In this document: piece after piece, positions 8,523 to 32,392 of the stretch
Layout: every line of letters starts with the position of its first letter
How positions within the stretch are numbered: the stretch's first letter is position 1
Made by a program: the position numbers and the translations under genes
Assembly (NCBI GenBank): GCA_017559615.1
Contig: JAFYRB010000107.1
Coordinates: forward strand, 1-33,057
Source: Alistipes sp.
Lineage (GTDB): Bacteria > Bacteroidota > Bacteroidia > Bacteroidales > Rikenellaceae
Reading direction: 5' to 3'
Length of the DNA stretch: 33,057 nt
The notes under the pieces: model-generated
The model's input: the letters and a program-made list of their open reading frames with translations, nothing else
The model's database searches: none
What the model was told of the DNA's origin: nothing

Positions 8523-8958
8523 TATACGAACAATGTCCCTAGGGGTGTTGTCTGATTGGAAAATATTTTTTAATTTTGTGATGCTATTGGATAAATAGCG
8601 ACATATTCGGTGTTTTCGCACTGTCCTTAATCGAAAATGTGGAAGTTTTCAATGCAAGAGGACATAACGAACAGCACTCATTTCTTGTATAGCTATGTGG
8701 CTGTACGCTTATTGCGTACCTACCCCATACTATCCAGGTGTGGGGCATTGTATCGTTTATTCTTGCATAGGTCTTTCCACAGCCTTCGATTAGATAGACG
8801 AAATCAACTCCACACTTTCTGTTTTTATATACCACTATAATGGATATGTGAAATCGAGAATTTAGTGTCAACTTAAAGCGATGTTAAGATAATTATTAAA
8901 TATGGAGTAAGCTGAAAATCCTTAAAAGAGTAAGCGAATAATAAAATATTACACTACT
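8523..8958. other. non-coding AT-rich region with an orphan promoter and two hairpins
   Basis: No convincing gene in about 435 bases. A perfect -7 box TAATTTTG (8571-8578) with GTTG 20 bases upstream points into the region. About 120 bases downstream lie two adjacent hairpins: GTACGC/GCGTAC (8703-8708 with 8714-8719) and CCCCATAC/GTGTGGGG (8723-8730 with 8738-8745, one wobble). A small RNA is possible. The base composition is more AT-rich than the folate genes and marks the start of the accessory patch. Confidence 0.45.
8547..8578 (+). promoter_or_regulatory. orphan Bacteroidales-type promoter
   Basis: GTTG at 8547-8550, 20-base spacer, perfect TAATTTTG at 8571-8578. No gene begins within 350 bases downstream on this strand. 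Confidence 0.5.
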
Positions 8959-24476: not shown

Positions 24477-24874
24477 ATCAGTTTTTTGCCAAATCCGAGC
24501 GTGTTATCGGTAAGTTTCATCATCGTAGGACGCACGGCCCAGAGAGTTAGTGGTGCTACGGCCGCATAGGGGAAACGCTTGATGTATGTGGTGCGTGCCT
24601 CCTCGTCGCCCGCCTCCGCGATGCCACAAATCTGTATGCCCTGCACACGTCCTACAACACGTGTCTCTAAAGGAATTGAGAGTGCTACGTGAGGGTTTGC
24701 CACCATATGCGCTCCGTGCTTTGTCGTGGTGTCTGACGTAAAGACAAAGAGGTTGCGAGTGCTATCGTAGGCATAGAAGCAGTTCGCCACATAGGGCATA
24801 CCGCTCTGGTCAACGGTGGCCAGCGTAAGCACGTGGTGCTTCTTAACGAATGATACTATCTTCTTGTCTACCAT
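24458..24874 (-). CDS. YhbP/UPF0306 family protein (FMN-binding split-barrel fold)
   Basis: A 138-residue protein resembling E. coli YhbP (UPF0306), a relative of pyridoxamine-phosphate oxidase split-barrel proteins. The best match is the C-terminal block TDNTLGFGKKLIW at 122-134, nearly the same as in YhbP. HHVLTLATVDQSGMPYVAN at the N-terminus and VVGRVQGIQICG in the middle are usual for the fold. Function and cofactor in this family are not established. Its ATG shares one base with the stop of the peptidase gene (TAATG) and its end overlaps ispD. Confidence 0.85.
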   Translation of the reverse strand: MVDKKIVSFVKKHHVLTLATVDQSGMPYVANCFYAYDSTRNLFVFTSDTTTKHGAHMVANPHVALSIPLETRVVGRVQGIQICGIAEAGDEEARTTYIKRFPYAAVAPLTLWAVRPTMMKLTDNTLGFGKKLIWESEE

Positions 24875-26208
24875 TATTTTACCTCTGTTGTGGCTGTCGC
24901 CGTAGTATCCGCCTCGGTCTTCTTACCGAAGATGTCATCGTCGGTAATCGCACCACCCATAATCTCCTGACCATTAAGCTCCGCAATTACTCTGTCGCGG
25001 ATAGCCTCGAAGCGCTCCTTATGTGCCTCTGCAATAGGCTCCGAAGGCTCCTGTGGCATCTTGAGTGGGTTGATAGGTGTACCATTCTTCTTGATGCGGA
25101 AGTCGAGGTGAGGACCTGTCGAAGCGCCTGTCGAGCCGACATATCCGATAAGCTGTCCCTGCGATACACGAGTACCTACGCGGATGCCCTTCGCAAAGCT
25201 CTTGAGGTGTAGGTAGCCAGTCTCGAGGCTTCCGGCGTGCTTAATCTTAATGGTGTTACCGCCACCACCGCGATCCCAACCCGCAAATGTCACCGTGCCA
25301 TCGGCTACCGAGTGAACAGGAGTGCCACTTGGCGCAGCATAGTCCACACCGTGATGTGGGCGGTAGACCTTATGTACTGGGTGAAGACGCGACTTCGAGA
25401 ACTTCGAGCTGATGCGTGTGTACTTCAATGGCGCCTTGAGGAACTGCTTACGCAATGACTCGCCATTAGCCTCCCAGTAGCGTAGCTTACCCTCCTCCTG
25501 AGCATAAGGAATGGCGTAATACTGTTTGCCATTGTGGTTGAACTCCGCACCCCAGATGCGACCAATACCCACCGACTCGCCATCTACGAACTTCTCGTCA
25601 TAAATTACCGCAAACGAGTCGCCAGCCTGAATGCCGAAGAAGTCCACGGTCCACTGATATATATCCTCAAATTCCGCTGCGAGGGCATAGGGCAAATTCT
25701 GCTCCATAATCACACCCCAGAGCGATGAGTTAATCGTAGCGCGACGGCACTGACGTACCACATCCACAGGTCTTGCACCACACTCCACGCTCACCGAGTC
25801 GCCCACAAAGCCAAAGACCACATAATCAATAGCATTGCGATGGTAGACAACATAGTCCACCACACTGTGGTCGCCCAACGAGTCGGTGTAGTTGCGCGTG
25901 AAGGTCGTGTAGGCATTATCAGCACGAATCTGGCGCAATGGGAATACCTCCTTTGCCACCTTATCAAGACGGTCTACCATTACTGCCGAGATGCCTCTGC
26001 GTCCCAAGATTCCGCCTACGGTCTCACCCATACGTACGGTGTCATTCTCGATGGTATATCCCTCTATGTCAATGCCATAGAGTAGTGTAGGCTCTATGAC
26101 TTCAATCTCCGTATTTCCATTATTGCCCTCGTTCTCGGCGGCGCCACCGCCACACGCCACGCTCAACGAAAGAAGCGCCGCTGTGGTAAATATTTTCGCA
26201 AAATTCAT
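24874..26208 (-). CDS. M23 family peptidase, lipoprotein
   Basis: A 444-residue envelope peptidase of the LytM/M23 family, probably cleaving peptidoglycan cross-bridges or regulating an amidase. The signal peptide ends in a lipobox (SVAC, Cys19). Residues 35-270 are an N-terminal region with LysM-like or Csd3-like parts; the M23 domain is at about 280-385, with the HxxxD motif HHGVDYA (His285, Asp289), His334 in TGYLHL, and GPHLDF (His367, Asp369). The HxH motif reads HxD, which I recall as common in Bacteroidetes members, so activity is possible. The start at 26208 is chosen because the upstream ATG at 26226 lies in the promoter box TACCTTTG (26223-26216). Acidic C-terminal tail. Confidence 0.88.
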   Translation of the reverse strand: MNFAKIFTTAALLSLSVACGGGAAENEGNNGNTEIEVIEPTLLYGIDIEGYTIENDTVRMGETVGGILGRRGISAVMVDRLDKVAKEVFPLRQIRADNAYTTFTRNYTDSLGDHSVVDYVVYHRNAIDYVVFGFVGDSVSVECGARPVDVVRQCRRATINSSLWGVIMEQNLPYALAAEFEDIYQWTVDFFGIQAGDSFAVIYDEKFVDGESVGIGRIWGAEFNHNGKQYYAIPYAQEEGKLRYWEANGESLRKQFLKAPLKYTRISSKFSKSRLHPVHKVYRPHHGVDYAAPSGTPVHSVADGTVTFAGWDRGGGGNTIKIKHAGSLETGYLHLKSFAKGIRVGTRVSQGQLIGYVGSTGASTGPHLDFRIKKNGTPINPLKMPQEPSEPIAEAHKERFEAIRDRVIAELNGQEIMGGAITDDDIFGKKTEADTTATATTEVK

Positions 26209-26305: not shown

Positions 26306-27373
26306 ATGCCATACGACGTTTTTATAAGCTACTCGCGTGCTGATTATTGGGATGAGAATAGGTGTGTTATCCCAGGCAATATCGTGCAGCAGATATTGGA
26401 TGTTTTGAATGCTTATAAGGCACGCTATAATATTAACTATTTCTTTGATCGTGAGAGAATTATATCAGCCGATAACTTCTATGATAGGATTCCTGCTGCA
26501 ATTTCGGATAGTCGTGCAGTAATGTTTATTGCGAGTAAGAGTTCTGTTGTGTCGGATATGTGTCGAAGGGAGTTGGAGTATACGTGTGGAGAGCATATCA
26601 CGATTCATCAGTATAAAATCGACGATGCGGTATACCCTCGAAATTTGCAGTTTCTTTTAGGAGGTCAGCATTTCCAGGAATCAAGATACGTCTCTGTTGA
26701 GAATTTCGTTAGAGAGGTCTTGTCAAATGTCTTGCGCCGAGAAATTGCGCCGCTTGCGAGTTTTGCAAATACTAATTCTATCCCTTCGCGAGGTGAGAAA
26801 CTTTATAGCATTGGAGATTACTACGATGATGGCCAGAAGCAAGGAGTAGTATTTGACGTTTGGGATGGTGGTAGACACGGAAAAATCGTGAGCCTTGATC
26901 AGGCAAATAGAGCATATTCGTGGGCGTCGAAAGCGGACTACGGTCATTGGCCAATAGTTCGTATTCCAGCCAAGATGAAAATAGGTGTTGAGGATGAGAA
27001 GAATGGTATGCGTAATATGCGCCGAGTTATGGAGGAGGATAATTGGGAGGAGAAGTATCCTGCGTTTAATTGGTGTAGTAGAGAGGGGGATGATTGGTAC
27101 TTGCCTGCAATCGATGAGTTGATTACGTTGTTATTGAATAACGATGTACGAAACAGAGTTAATAACACACTTCGAGAGTACAGGGCAAAGGAGTTGCTGA
27201 ATAGCCGAGGATTTGGTTGGTATTGGTCATCGACAGAGTATAAGGCGAGTTCGAATGATGAAGATGTGGAGGATGGTATAAAGGCTTGGATTGTCTCTAT
27301 GACTAATGCCTGCCTGCGCGGCTATGATAAATCGCAAGGCTATGGAACGGTTAGAGCCATAGCAGCATTTTAA
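26306..27373 (+). CDS. TIR domain protein with C-terminal DUF1566/Lcl_C-like domain
   Basis: A 355-residue soluble protein. Residues 3-147 are a TIR domain: YDVFISYSRAD (3-13), FFDRERIISADNFYD (46-60), AVMFIASKSS (71-80), then MCRRELEY (85-92), where Glu89 sits at the catalytic position of NAD-cleaving TIR domains. A linker is followed by a domain (165-355) like DUF1566/Lcl_C, thought to have a C-type lectin-like fold: YYDDGQKQGVVFDV, KIVSLDQA, WCSREGDDWYLPAIDEL, YWSSTEY (306-312) and VRAIAAF at the very end. No signal peptide. The gene is AT-richer than its neighbours, has its own promoter and terminator, and is placed between housekeeping operons, as transferred defence genes often are. TIR effectors in anti-phage systems degrade NAD; here the second domain would be the sensor. 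That role is inference. Confidence 0.88.
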   Translation: MPYDVFISYSRADYWDENRCVIPGNIVQQILDVLNAYKARYNINYFFDRERIISADNFYDRIPAAISDSRAVMFIASKSSVVSDMCRRELEYTCGEHITIHQYKIDDAVYPRNLQFLLGGQHFQESRYVSVENFVREVLSNVLRREIAPLASFANTNSIPSRGEKLYSIGDYYDDGQKQGVVFDVWDGGRHGKIVSLDQANRAYSWASKADYGHWPIVRIPAKMKIGVEDEKNGMRNMRRVMEEDNWEEKYPAFNWCSREGDDWYLPAIDELITLLLNNDVRNRVNNTLREYRAKELLNSRGFGWYWSSTEYKASSNDEDVEDGIKAWIVSMTNACLRGYDKSQGYGTVRAIAAF

Positions 27374-27381
27374 TCAATTAG

Positions 27382-27408
27382 GGATGCAGATGATGCATCC
27401 TTTTTTTT
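27382..27408 (+). terminator. terminator of the TIR gene
   Basis: A 7-bp stem GGATGCA (27382-27388) with TGCATCC (27394-27400), loop GATGA, followed by eight T. Confidence 0.93.
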
Positions 27409-27659: not shown

Positions 27660-28757
27660 ATGACACTTTTGAGAACCATAATATCGTGGATATACACTCT
27701 TGTAGTGGTGATACGTCATCGCCTCTACGATTGGGGTGTGCTTAAAAGTGTCAAGTTCGATATTCCGATTATCTGTGTGGGAAACATCACCGTAGGTGGT
27801 ACGGGTAAGACTCCGACGGTGGAGTATCTGCTCTCGGTGCTTGGCGAAAGGTACAATATTGCGGTGCTCTCGCGAGGCTATGGTCGTCAGACAAAGGGCT
27901 ATCGTGAGGTAATGACAACCGACTCGTATGCCGATGTTGGCGATGAGCCACTTCTTTTGAAGTTGAAATTCCCAGAGCGCCCGATTGTCGTGTGCGAGGA
28001 TAGGGTAGCGGGCATAGAGCGCATCCGTCAGGAGCATCCCGAGGTGACGCTTATAGTGATGGATGATGGATTCCAGCATCGTAGGGTTAAGGCGAAGGTG
28101 AATCTTATACTTATCGACTCGACACGTCCTGTTGAGGGCGACAGTATGTTGCCTTTGGGCCGTCTGCGTGACATCCCATCGCGTCTTAAGAAGGCGCATA
28201 TATTCCTTGTTACGAAGTGCTCTACGACAATGTCGCCTATTGATAGACGATTGTGGACCAATAAGTTGCGCTCGGTGGCTTATCAGAAGATTTTCTTCAC
28301 GCGCTACCAGAGTCCGATGGTCGAGCCTGTCTACTACTTCGAGGAGCGTGAGACGATAGATTATGGCCGTCAGGCAATTCTTATGACGGGTATCGGAAAT
28401 CCACGTCCTTTTGTCCGCGAGGCGGAGACGCGCTTCAGTGTTGTGGAGAAGCTTATTTTCCCTGACCATCACAGCTTTACGGCCGAGGATATGAGACGTG
28501 TGTATGAGCTTATGAATAAGTATCCACGTGCCATTGTGCTTATGACCGAGAAGGATGCTGTGAGGTTGCGCAATGCACGACTTCCAAAGATGCTTATGCG
28601 TGCGATGTACTATCAGCCTATCTCGATGCGATTTATCGAGGGTCCAGATCAGGATTTCGTAAGCAATCTTATCTCCGAGATTGAGTATGGCAAGAAACGT
28701 GATAACGTAAAGGCCGAGGGCGAGGAGTCTGCAACACAAGGCGGCGAGGCAATTTAG
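27660..28757 (+). CDS. lpxK: tetraacyldisaccharide 4'-kinase
   Basis: LpxK phosphorylates the 4' position of the tetraacyldisaccharide to make lipid IVA, at the inner membrane. The 365-residue product has the N-terminal membrane-associated helix (about 3-20), the shifted Walker A GNITVGGTGKTP at 41-52, SRGYGR, GDEPLLL, MDDGFQH with the catalytic Asp, and a C-terminal lobe with FPDHHSFT and MTEKDAVR. Its start overlaps the stop of a short leader frame by one base. The last 20 residues are low-complexity and acidic. ssb follows 52 bases later. Confidence 0.94.
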   Translation: MTLLRTIISWIYTLVVVIRHRLYDWGVLKSVKFDIPIICVGNITVGGTGKTPTVEYLLSVLGERYNIAVLSRGYGRQTKGYREVMTTDSYADVGDEPLLLKLKFPERPIVVCEDRVAGIERIRQEHPEVTLIVMDDGFQHRRVKAKVNLILIDSTRPVEGDSMLPLGRLRDIPSRLKKAHIFLVTKCSTTMSPIDRRLWTNKLRSVAYQKIFFTRYQSPMVEPVYYFEERETIDYGRQAILMTGIGNPRPFVREAETRFSVVEKLIFPDHHSFTAEDMRRVYELMNKYPRAIVLMTEKDAVRLRNARLPKMLMRAMYYQPISMRFIEGPDQDFVSNLISEIEYGKKRDNVKAEGEESATQGGEAI

Positions 28758-29581: not shown

Positions 29582-32392
29582 ATGAAAAGATTTTTTATGA
29601 ACATTAAGAGCGCAGTACTCGCAGTGGCTACTGTGGCTTTTATGGCCTCTTCTATGGTGTCGTGTCAGTATGATGATACCGACATCTGGGAGGAGATTGG
29701 CCAGATTAAGCAGGAGTTGGCTGATTTGCGTCAGCAGCTCGAGGATGAGCTTAATGCTATTAAGGACTTGGTGAATGGCCAGGTGACTATCAAGGAGATT
29801 AAGCAGCAGAACGACGGTAGCAAGGTTATCGTGCTCTCGGATGGTACAAAGGTTACGGTTTATCCTAAGGGTGCTGGTGTTCCAGGAAACATCGTTACTG
29901 TGGTATCGGAGAATGGCGTGATGTACTGGGCTATGTACGATGGTCTTGGCAATGCTAATCCTATCTTGGTAAATGGCCAGAAGGTGCCTGTTGCGGAGAT
30001 TGCTCCAAAGACACAGATTGTTGATGGCGCTATTGAGGTGTCGTTCGACGGTGGTGAGACTTGGATTAAGACTGGTTACACAGAGTCTGTTGCTGACAGC
30101 ATCATCGTAGATGTTGAGGTAGTTTACTCTGATTGGCAGACCGACGGCGATGGCAACCCTGTGGCTCTCTACTGCAAGGTAACGTTGGCTGATGGCTCTG
30201 TTGTGAAGGTTGGTATGCAGAATGGTAAGCTCGTATTGCCATACGATATGATGTTCGTGCCTTATGGCTCGGAGATGGTCTTCGCACTCGAGGTTTCGGA
30301 TGTTGCTGACTTTATGACCACTACACCACGTGGCTGGGAGTGTGAGGTTGAGCATAACGCAAAGAACCGCTTTATGGCTCTTAACTTCTTTGCTCCTACA
30401 TACGAGGATGTTGAGGCTGGTAAGGCAGTACGTGAGGGTGTTGCAAAGTTGATGGTTGTATTCAACAACGGCTCATCGGCTATCGCATCTATCAAGCTCT
30501 CTACAAACCCTGCACAGGTATACTTCACACAGGAGGGTGTATATGTTGAGGCTGGTTACGGTACTAACTACTTGCTTTGCGGTATCATCGGCTCTAACAA
30601 CTTCAACCTCGATACTTACGTTACAAACTGTAACAAGGTTCTTGCAGATGGTAGCACACTATCAGGTATCTATCAGCTCGCATTTATGGAGACTCAGTCT
30701 GCATATATTCCATATAGCGATCTTCGTTCAGCAGCACTCAAGGCTGGTGATGAGTACACATTCTGGTACGTAGCACCTCGCACCGACGAGGAGGGTGGCC
30801 TCTATGTTGATGCTCAGGAGTTCGTAATCGAGAAGTATGTTCACAGCTCTGTAACCTTCTCTACTACAAGCACATCGTTCTTCGATGTTGACGTAGCATT
30901 CAAGGTTGTTGGCTCGGAGGGTTATATGCTTGGCTATATGAAGGCTGAGGAGTTCAACGCTGCAGAGATTGCTGCTTACTACACCGAGAACTACGACTAT
31001 CTCAACGCTACACGTGAGGACGTTAACTACACTGGCTCGTTCCTTGAGCTTGTAACATCTTCGGAGAAGCTTAAGAATGGTACAGAGTATGTTCTTTACT
31101 ACATCGCAAAGAACAAGTCGCACGTGATTCTCGAGGATAACGTTATCAGTTGGTCGTTCACTACTGCTGACTTCGTTGAGGGCGGTGAGCTTGAGGTGGA
31201 TATCGTAGGTGAGCCTGTTGTAGAGTATAAGGATATCTATCTCGACCTCAACTCTAACGGCGACCACATTATGATTATCTACAACGCAATGCCTTCGTAT
31301 ATGGCAACTGCATATCCTGATGACTCATACATCGTGAATATGCTCCTTAACGAGGGTGTTCGCACAATCACCGATGGTGTTGTTTCGGCACACTACAAGG
31401 GTACAGAGCCAGGTGAGGCTGTAACACTCTTCGCCGTAGCTATCGACCAGGAGGGTAAGATTGGTACTCCTTTGAAGCGCGAGTTCAAGACTAAGGATTT
31501 CGTTTATAACGACCTTACTGTAACGCTCTCGCTTGTAGACTATAAGATTGACAATACGCTTATCAACGTAGCTTGCGAGGGTTCATCACACTTCAAGTAT
31601 ATCTACTGCTCGCTCAGCGATAGCAAGTGGAAAGATGTGTATGGCGGTACTGCAAAGAAGGCTGGTGAGTATATGATTATGCATCCTAATGCTTCGGATG
31701 TTTACGATACTGATGTAGACCCTCTTACCGAGGATGGCAACATCTTCCTTAAGGGTCTTAACACCGATACGGAGTATGTTTTGGTTTGCGTAGCTGTGGA
31801 TGAGGATGGCGTGGTTTCAAAGCCTGCTACTTGCTACTTCGAGCCTATCGCAAACATCGGTAATATGGTTAAGCGCACTGATGCTAACTGGGCAGAGGGC
31901 AAGCCAGTAATCACTCTTGGTGACACTGTCGAGGTTGAGTTCTTCAACTTCTCTTGGTATACAACACCACAGAAGGGCTACGTAGCATACTCTATGGCTG
32001 ACCACCCAGATAACCTTGAGAATGATTATTATGGTACTAATGTAAACACTCCAGAGAAGCTTATCGCATATATCGTTGCTGGTTGCGACAATGGCCAGCG
32101 TGAGTGCGGTCACAAGTGTGTTTACTCGGAGGATGGTTACTCATACGTATGGCAGGAGATGGAGGACCTCAATGGTGACGGTCGCATCGAGTTTGACGAG
32201 TGGGTAGAGAAGCGCATCGATGGTCTTCCAGGTGTTTACAACTCATACTTCTATGGTACAAAGGGTGAGCACCGCATCTATGTTACTTGGGTAGGTGAGG
32301 ATGGCAACTTCCACGAGCCATTTGTTTACAACCCAACAACAGATCAGGAGGAGGAGCTTAACGCTGATAACTTCCCTGCATACTTCGAGTAA
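29582..32392 (+). CDS. large surface lipoprotein with DUF4988-like N-terminus and an EF-hand-like loop
   Basis: A 936-residue exported lipoprotein: signal peptide with lipobox SMVSC (Cys28), a short coiled coil (about 33-64, IGQIKQELADLRQQLEDEL), then a DUF4988-like beta region (KVIVLSDGTKVTVYPKGAG, SFDGGETWIKTG), as in many Bacteroidetes surface proteins. The rest is several Ig/fibronectin-like beta modules; recurring ends read NGTEYVLYYIAKN and DTEYVLVCVAVDEDG. Near the C-terminus, residues 862-873 (DLNGDGRIEFDE) fit the calcium-binding EF-hand/dockerin loop. No enzyme motif or SusD-like pattern is seen, so a surface-binding or adhesive role is only a guess. Strong promoter, long leader and biased codons suggest high expression. 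No TonB-dependent partner gene is adjacent. Confidence 0.85.
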   Translation: MKRFFMNIKSAVLAVATVAFMASSMVSCQYDDTDIWEEIGQIKQELADLRQQLEDELNAIKDLVNGQVTIKEIKQQNDGSKVIVLSDGTKVTVYPKGAGVPGNIVTVVSENGVMYWAMYDGLGNANPILVNGQKVPVAEIAPKTQIVDGAIEVSFDGGETWIKTGYTESVADSIIVDVEVVYSDWQTDGDGNPVALYCKVTLADGSVVKVGMQNGKLVLPYDMMFVPYGSEMVFALEVSDVADFMTTTPRGWECEVEHNAKNRFMALNFFAPTYEDVEAGKAVREGVAKLMVVFNNGSSAIASIKLSTNPAQVYFTQEGVYVEAGYGTNYLLCGIIGSNNFNLDTYVTNCNKVLADGSTLSGIYQLAFMETQSAYIPYSDLRSAALKAGDEYTFWYVAPRTDEEGGLYVDAQEFVIEKYVHSSVTFSTTSTSFFDVDVAFKVVGSEGYMLGYMKAEEFNAAEIAAYYTENYDYLNATREDVNYTGSFLELVTSSEKLKNGTEYVLYYIAKNKSHVILEDNVISWSFTTADFVEGGELEVDIVGEPVVEYKDIYLDLNSNGDHIMIIYNAMPSYMATAYPDDSYIVNMLLNEGVRTITDGVVSAHYKGTEPGEAVTLFAVAIDQEGKIGTPLKREFKTKDFVYNDLTVTLSLVDYKIDNTLINVACEGSSHFKYIYCSLSDSKWKDVYGGTAKKAGEYMIMHPNASDVYDTDVDPLTEDGNIFLKGLNTDTEYVLVCVAVDEDGVVSKPATCYFEPIANIGNMVKRTDANWAEGKPVITLGDTVEVEFFNFSWYTTPQKGYVAYSMADHPDNLENDYYGTNVNTPEKLIAYIVAGCDNGQRECGHKCVYSEDGYSYVWQEMEDLNGDGRIEFDEWVEKRIDGLPGVYNSYFYGTKGEHRIYVTWVGEDGNFHEPFVYNPTTDQEEELNADNFPAYFE

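Follow-up and report, generated by a model that had tools for sequence, protein, structure and literature searches.

A TIR–lectin gene of Alistipes is a probably quiet member of a Bacteroidales family in which many lectin tips carry a DGR signature

The gene at positions 26306–27373 (+) of the window (the whole 33,057-nt stretch of Alistipes sp. DNA that we analyzed) encodes an N-terminal TIR domain joined to a C-terminal Lcl_C/DUF1566 C-type-lectin-like domain. We find that it appears to be a quiet member of a TIR–Lcl_C family, that the lectin tips of many relatives bear the signature of DGR mutagenesis, and that a template repeat matching these tips sits on phage-like contigs. We think it fairly probable that the product is a one-protein receptor–effector from a DGR-diversified Bacteroidales lectin family and that the window copy is fixed and retired. 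The features of the gene and its surroundings are as follows.

26306–27373 (+): TIR–Lcl_C gene, 355 aa plus stop
26306–26740 (+): TIR domain, aa 1–145 (Pfam TIR_2/TIR; structural matches)
26570–26572 (+): codon of Glu89, candidate catalytic glutamate in CRREL (alignment to flax L7; family conservation)
26741–26800 (+): short linker, aa 146–165 (hydropathy, pLDDT)
26801–27370 (+): Lcl_C/DUF1566 C-type-lectin-like domain, aa 166–355
27287–27370 (+): segment equivalent to the relatives' DGR variable repeat, eroded in the window copy (comparison with the phage template)
26276–26283 (+): TATCTTTG, promoter element read from the sequence, which we take to be a Bacteroidales -7-like element
27382–27408 (+): terminator-like hairpin GGATGCA-GATGA-TGCATCC, then T8 (read from the sequence)
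24874–26208 (−): M23 peptidase gene, flanking
27660–28757 (+): lpxK, flanking

The window protein scores above the curated Pfam cut-offs for both TIR_2 (34.7 bits vs 28) and TIR (23.8 bits vs 21.3), and the structural matches of its TIR half are RUN1, AbTir, SARM1, SPARTA, and ThsB. Glu89 lines up with the Glu of WCLMEL in flax L7 and is conserved at 90% or more in a 35-sequence family alignment. A first-pass annotation had proposed a TIR domain in which Glu89 stands where NAD-cleaving TIR domains carry their glutamate; the profiles, fold matches, and L7 alignment bear this out. The protein shares its fold with NADase TIR domains (AbTir, plant RUN1/L7, SARM1) and with ThsB, and by alignment its glutamate stands at the position equivalent to that of L7, but it is joined to a lectin in place of APAZ, SAVED, or LRR. 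We would expect the window TIR to cleave NAD+. By sequence profile, the protein falls in no named defence family: it scores 12.1 bits (E 0.018) with the Thoeris ThsB profile, below the family threshold, 14 bits with type III ThcB4 (NF058526; threshold 220), and 16.5 bits with the TIR retron RT fusion (NF042941; cut-off 600).

The same annotation had called the C-terminal half DUF1566/Lcl_C lectin-like, and the tools identify a lectin-type domain there, with the profile score below the curated Lcl_C (PF07603) cut-off. No transmembrane helix is found in the linker (hydropathy maximum 0.48), and the pLDDT of the predicted structure falls below 50 at residues 156–163. At E ≤ 1e-3 the protein has 1163 relatives, not all with TIR. 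In a set made of the best 120 of these plus the window protein, 98 of 121 members start with a TIR-type motif, 87 of those 98 keeping C..E[LM], and in 39 of the 86 with a locatable Lcl start a transmembrane-like segment separates TIR from Lcl_C (for example P0003, P0015, P0034, and P0086), as judged by hydropathy, a crude test by which a few segments are marginal. This order of TIR, membrane helix, and lectin is Toll-like receptor topology read from the opposite end. The fusion of TIR to a lectin, which had first been thought unusual, turns out to be common in Rikenellaceae/Alistipes MAGs.

The gene stands alone between housekeeping genes, as first noted, with M23 peptidase on one side and lpxK on the other; neither a Thoeris partner nor any other known defence partner is adjacent, and its GC3 of 0.42, against 0.56 for lpxK and 0.59 for M23, agrees with the initial description of it as AT-richer than its neighbors. 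In the closest genomes available for comparison (LpxK identity 82–83%), all eight near relatives compared (L174–L181) keep the order ispD, PPOX-like, M23, lpxK, ssb, the first two being presumptive names. The M23–lpxK gap in these relatives is ∼157–306 bp. Because the site is empty of a TIR–Lcl_C match in all eight, the simplest reading is that the window gene was gained on its own, between housekeeping genes. Elsewhere, the window contains a DUF805b RNA motif at 8902–8936 (+) (RF02914, 40.6 bits vs a gathering score of 35.6) and, at 29582–32392 (+), a gene for a 936-aa protein with a DUF4988 domain and a lipoprotein-like signal read from the sequence.

The C-termini of the best 120 relatives share a constant frame, WSSTE ... 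AW.V.M..G.T....K....YVRAVSAF, whose dotted residues are highly variable. At the DNA level, the variable codons of 35 tips from seven genomes read NNT or NNC, each position mostly keeping one third base across genomes, and in many Bacteroidales relatives the first two bases of ∼13 codons per tip are scrambled; a minority of the 35 (e.g., L032 and L041) lie outside the frame. This codon pattern is the signature that DGR mutagenesis leaves when its template is AAY. We compared 63 tips (of 69 motif matches, six being dropped as duplicates or out of frame) with the phage template described below and found differences at 1015 of 2016 A positions and 561 of 2709 non-A positions; the tips were gathered by amino-acid motifs, which favors those that keep the frame. 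Among the 30 closest gene pairs, which are not mutually independent, the first two codon positions of the tip changed more than the third in 26 (the exceptions being L007/L014, L038/L050, L070/L072, and L076/L078), while the flanks of all 30 changed most at position 3. For L028/L052, change per codon position was 0.52/0.43/0.00 in the tip and 0.22/0.16/0.52 in the flank.

TIR-fused tips share the bias. All 22 that we tested lie in ORFs confirmed as TIR by HMM, and 12 show A-bias against the phage template at p < 0.01, among them L073 (17/32 A vs 1/43 non-A), L006 (13/32 vs 1/43), and L037 (14/32 vs 2/43). The other 10 fall short, some apparently misaligned by inserted codons and others fixed, such as L020, L023, and L025. 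Outside this test are the TIR ORFs L030, L038, and L067 and five more without a frame-fitting tip. Two TIR ORFs with a transmembrane-like segment, L038 (17/32 A vs 2/43 non-A) and L073, have near-template tips. Across all 268 family genomes, a variable-repeat pattern with N at the variable bases (≤3 mismatches) matched 38, with up to 14 copies in one, and a reversed-pattern control matched none; since G096 is matched only at the template, and G090 only at the template and at the target belonging to the phage itself, 36 genomes carry other variable repeats. An element, TTTAGGCTT, occurs within 60 bases past the stop (≤1 mismatch) of 30/35 good tips (non-A differences ≤6), 4/6 intermediate tips, and 4/16 poor tips. 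It thus accompanies intact variable repeats downstream of Lcl_C tip genes (L052 and L063 are examples) and is possibly a DGR homing cis-element.

We wrote the AAY template as a DNA pattern from the relatives' protein C-termini. With ≤3 mismatches allowed, it matched none of the first 36 genomes, those carrying the fetched family loci, a result that spoke against a DGR until the family-wide search, which recovered it without a mismatch in 2 of 268 genomes (G090 and G096); a shorter form occurs in two viral contigs. All four finds lie in phage-like loci. As read from ORFs, the order in L097, L095, and L096 is Lcl_C target, Avd, template, RT, and L098 starts at the template, at a contig end. Profile scanning of L097 (Pfam/PHROG) also identified RVT_1, bAvd/'Avd protein of DGR', Lcl_C, and a baseplate hub, and ATTAGGCTTT, similar to TTTAGGCTT, follows its phage target. 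Besides RT and Avd, the G090 locus holds an Lcl_C target and a baseplate-hub gene, and the G096 locus has the same RT and neighbors. A contig with an RT of the same lineage (L099) carries a Mom protein. The viral contig L185, with a variable repeat of its own, has a transposase by PHROG and a Mu-type Pfam match just under the cut-off; no tail gene was recognized on its 6.2 kb. A small variable-repeat ORF lies at 2380–2760 of L185, upstream of the phage transposase gene. From their gene content, we interpret these loci as Mu or hankyphage-like phages.

Relatives of the phage RT occur in 45 of 268 genomes, only three being of the same lineage (100, 100, and 95% identity) and the others 49% identical or less. 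An RVT_1 search of the 36 genomes gave matches in 10, and the motif IGNLTSQ, which we take to be that of DGR RTs, was present only in L087 and L092. A scan of the viral contigs yielded no confirmed match for the window protein and, with the family alignment, one weak distant locus. Among the genomes searched (the first 36 and the 268), no case combines the exact template with a host TIR tip. G009 has the same RT lineage (95%), A-biased TIR tips (L010 and L071), and a contig-edge template with different framework codons. MAG contigs of G096 and G009 stop at or near the template, so that assembly or binning could hide co-residence. In the repeat-rich genomes G033 (14 copies) and G013 (7), which are incomplete metagenome assemblies, the searches detected no template and no relative of the phage RT. 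Because the template frame is identical and these repeat-rich genomes carry copies without template or RT, the comparison suggests that a phage-borne element may act on host genes.

The lectin tip is joined to several outputs. An HMM of the family TIR half detects TIR in 29 of 64 tip-bearing ORFs, and Pfam, run on 41 chosen from the 64, finds TIR_2 (17), protein kinase (5), PEGA (12), and FGE-sulfatase (3), so that different outputs share one tip. The five Ser/Thr kinases with the same DGR-type Lcl_C tip (L062, L039, L050, L064, and L076, from Alistipes/Rikenellaceae MAGs) were also checked individually. The tip is dispersed over genomes and occurs on TIR proteins (a transmembrane helix being present in some), Ser/Thr kinases, and apparently secreted proteins. 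The proposal of the first-pass annotation that the lectin-like domain is the trigger sensor gains support, since hypermutation is expected of a recognition module and, in many relatives, it marks the C-terminal segment of this domain.

Homologues do not clearly lie beside defence genes. Eight of nine neighbors of TIR–Lcl_C genes belong to ordinary Pfam families (RNase III, peptidase S51, radical-SAM rRNA methyltransferase, ClpC-type AAA, gyrA, TPR protein, BrkB/DUF2520 ORF, and HAD phosphatase), and the ninth has no match. Among 107 neighbors of 29 TIR ORFs, PADLOC (E ≤ 1e-10) matched 11 families, DolB, mad2, mad3, mad8, pVip, and AriA among them, with one member each and possibly one protein counted more than once. 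Because each family matched one neighbor only, there is no recurring defence partner in this set, and we do not accept the matches as a defence association. Immediately upstream of each of the TIR–Lcl_C genes L020, L023, and L025 stand a 571-aa and a 179-aa ORF; those of L020 scan as BrkB/DUF2520 and HAD phosphatase.

In the window copy, the segment W328–F355 keeps the frame loosely, retaining W.V.M at its start and K......VRA(I) near its end. Compared over 19 codons with the phage template, which is not a template from its own genome, it has changes at 14 of 23 A positions and 13 of 34 others. With p = 0.079 this A-bias is not significant, and TTTAGGCTT is absent after the stop (3 mismatches). 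Because the tip no longer matches the template significantly, the window copy is probably a retired or fixed family member with a frozen specificity.

We propose that the C-terminal Lcl_C domain would bind a ligand that probably comes from a phage or from the envelope, that binding would bring N-terminal TIR domains together, and that the assembled domains would then cleave NAD+ and stop the cell, an arrangement that would make the protein antiphage. Across the dispersed Bacteroidales family, many Lcl_C tips presumably serve, or once served, as DGR variable repeats, in which cDNA copied mutagenically from an AAY-rich template would rewrite ∼13 codons to give each copy its own recognition, and this diversification could keep the sensor matched to changing phages. 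The matching template sits with RT, and with Avd where the contig reaches, on what we read as Mu/hankyphage-like phages, and the window copy retains the Glu at the catalytic position and the lectin fold, with its tip off-template. We put forward tentatively, as possible rather than probable, a bolder reading in which the template and RT of a temperate Mu/hankyphage-like phage rewrite host TIR, kinase, and surface lectin tips, so that a virus would diversify the immune-receptor repertoire of its lysogen; genes of the window type would be specificities frozen after loss of the element, and TIR–helix–lectin members would amount to bacterial Toll-like receptors whose ectodomain a retroelement has diversified.

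These proposals have to be weighed against other sources of tip diversity and other functions. Gene conversion among paralogues would need no retroelement, and with many paralogues per genome the donors are present; we nevertheless consider it highly improbable, because shuffled tips would not give A-specific change, and the changes cluster at A positions of a template that was found independently while third codon bases stay largely constant. We rejected it as the source of tip diversity on these codon-position grounds, 4 of the 30 pairs excepted. A more serious, if doubtful, alternative is that the proteins are regulators of signaling or adhesion and not of defence, with Lcl_C sensing glycans or envelope state and TIR producing a signal molecule. 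The sharing of one tip with Ser/Thr kinases and PEGA-type, apparently secreted proteins, the mostly ordinary genes among the scanned neighbors, and the transmembrane-like helix of some TIR members are all consistent with such a role. Against it, bacterial TIR domains of known function act mostly in phage defence, and hypermutated recognition would seem to suit an evolving antagonist better than a fixed self-ligand.

For the window gene itself, it is unlikely, in our judgment, that we are dealing with a plain TIR enzyme with a fixed lectin, to which the DGR link of its relatives, arising later and separately, has nothing to say. The missing signature in the window tip and the nearly identical fixed tips of the TIR–Lcl_C genes L020, L023, and L025, from three genomes, fit that account, but the conserved residues at both ends of the window tip do not. 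Phylogeny bears on both sides: a midpoint-rooted FastTree built from 127 TIR–Lcl_C bodies without their tips places the window protein in a clade of 10 with support 0.977, the next deeper node having support 0.16 and branches being long; 8 of the 10 lack the strict frame, but this supported clade also holds P0024 and P0044, which have it intact. Less likely again is that the gene is a live DGR target served by a different, unsampled template repeat in its own genome. Related DGRs do have other template frames (L104, NLNWNNGNL...; L110, NTNNGNVNNNNM...), but where tips are live, close relatives disagree at many of the variable codons, whereas P0002, a near-identical homologue that represents a cluster of 22 member sequences, differs from the window protein at five residues of which only one (337) is in the tip; moreover, the window tip codons CTG, TCG, CAA, and GGA are foreign to the known template frame and not expected from it.

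If the receptor–effector reading is correct, gut Bacteroidales would join those bacteria that couple hypermutable, antibody-like sensors to immune effectors, and would do so very compactly, with effector and sensor in one gene of ∼1 kb, and the DUF1566 domain on many Bacteroidales TIR proteins would have an explanation. It also raises the question of whether a phage-borne retroelement diversifies host genes in trans, for which the template and target sequences are now explicit and testable. Judged by titles and passages, the open-licence literature yielded no paper on TIR–DUF1566 fusions as Bacteroidales DGR targets; DUF1566 and TIR came together only in a Legionella Lcl paper (PMC11162425), where Tir appears once as 'integrin/Tir binding', and word searches gave no match for TIR in PMC8144416 and PMC10053308 or in the main texts of PMC4159848 and PMC6642488. 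Legionella Lcl is described in PMC11162425 as a trimer, and the Lcl_C half of the window protein may be trimeric too. Within that open-licence literature we found no account of the compact Bacteroidales TIR/kinase–Lcl_C repertoire, of a Toll-like version with a membrane segment, or of any phage template that matches effector genes of the host. Already published, as far as those passages go, are DGR lectin-effectors (kinases and some TIR), dispersed targets, DUF1566 targets, and Bacteroidetes phage DGRs.

Passages of PMC7517822 describe cyanobacterial DGR variable proteins in which a C-terminal C-type lectin with a variable region is carried on Ser/Thr kinases, peptidases, and, less often, TIR-like domains, with many dispersed remote targets tied to a DGR in the same genome. 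The lectin–effector architecture and the dispersed targets are alike in our family, but ours is from Bacteroidales, uses an Lcl_C lectin, and has its exact template on phage-like contigs, whereas theirs is cyanobacterial with the DGR in the same genome. For multicellular bacteria, the DGR-diversified conflict systems described from Thiohalocapsa and its relatives (PMC10907252) and the VMAP/FGS ternary systems (PMC7159879) have hypervariable CLec sensors tied, in the parts consulted, to immune effectors including TIR; those targets carry STAND or CHAT modules or belong to multi-gene MoxR systems, and a DGR is nearby or in the genome, while the window gene is a single short one with no NTPase and no RT alongside. 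DUF1566 is reported from human gut metagenomes and other genomes as a common DGR target domain with the variable repeat at the protein C-terminus (passages of PMC4159848 and PMC6642488), a placement that the present family shares. The Bacteroidetes phage DGRs of hankyphage, for which Avd is named, and of Quimbyviridae comprise an RT, a template repeat, and a hypervariable target, the Quimbyviridae targets being nested among defence-related genes (passages of PMC12135933 and PMC8008677); the targets described there are phage genes, whereas those considered here are bacterial TIR genes.
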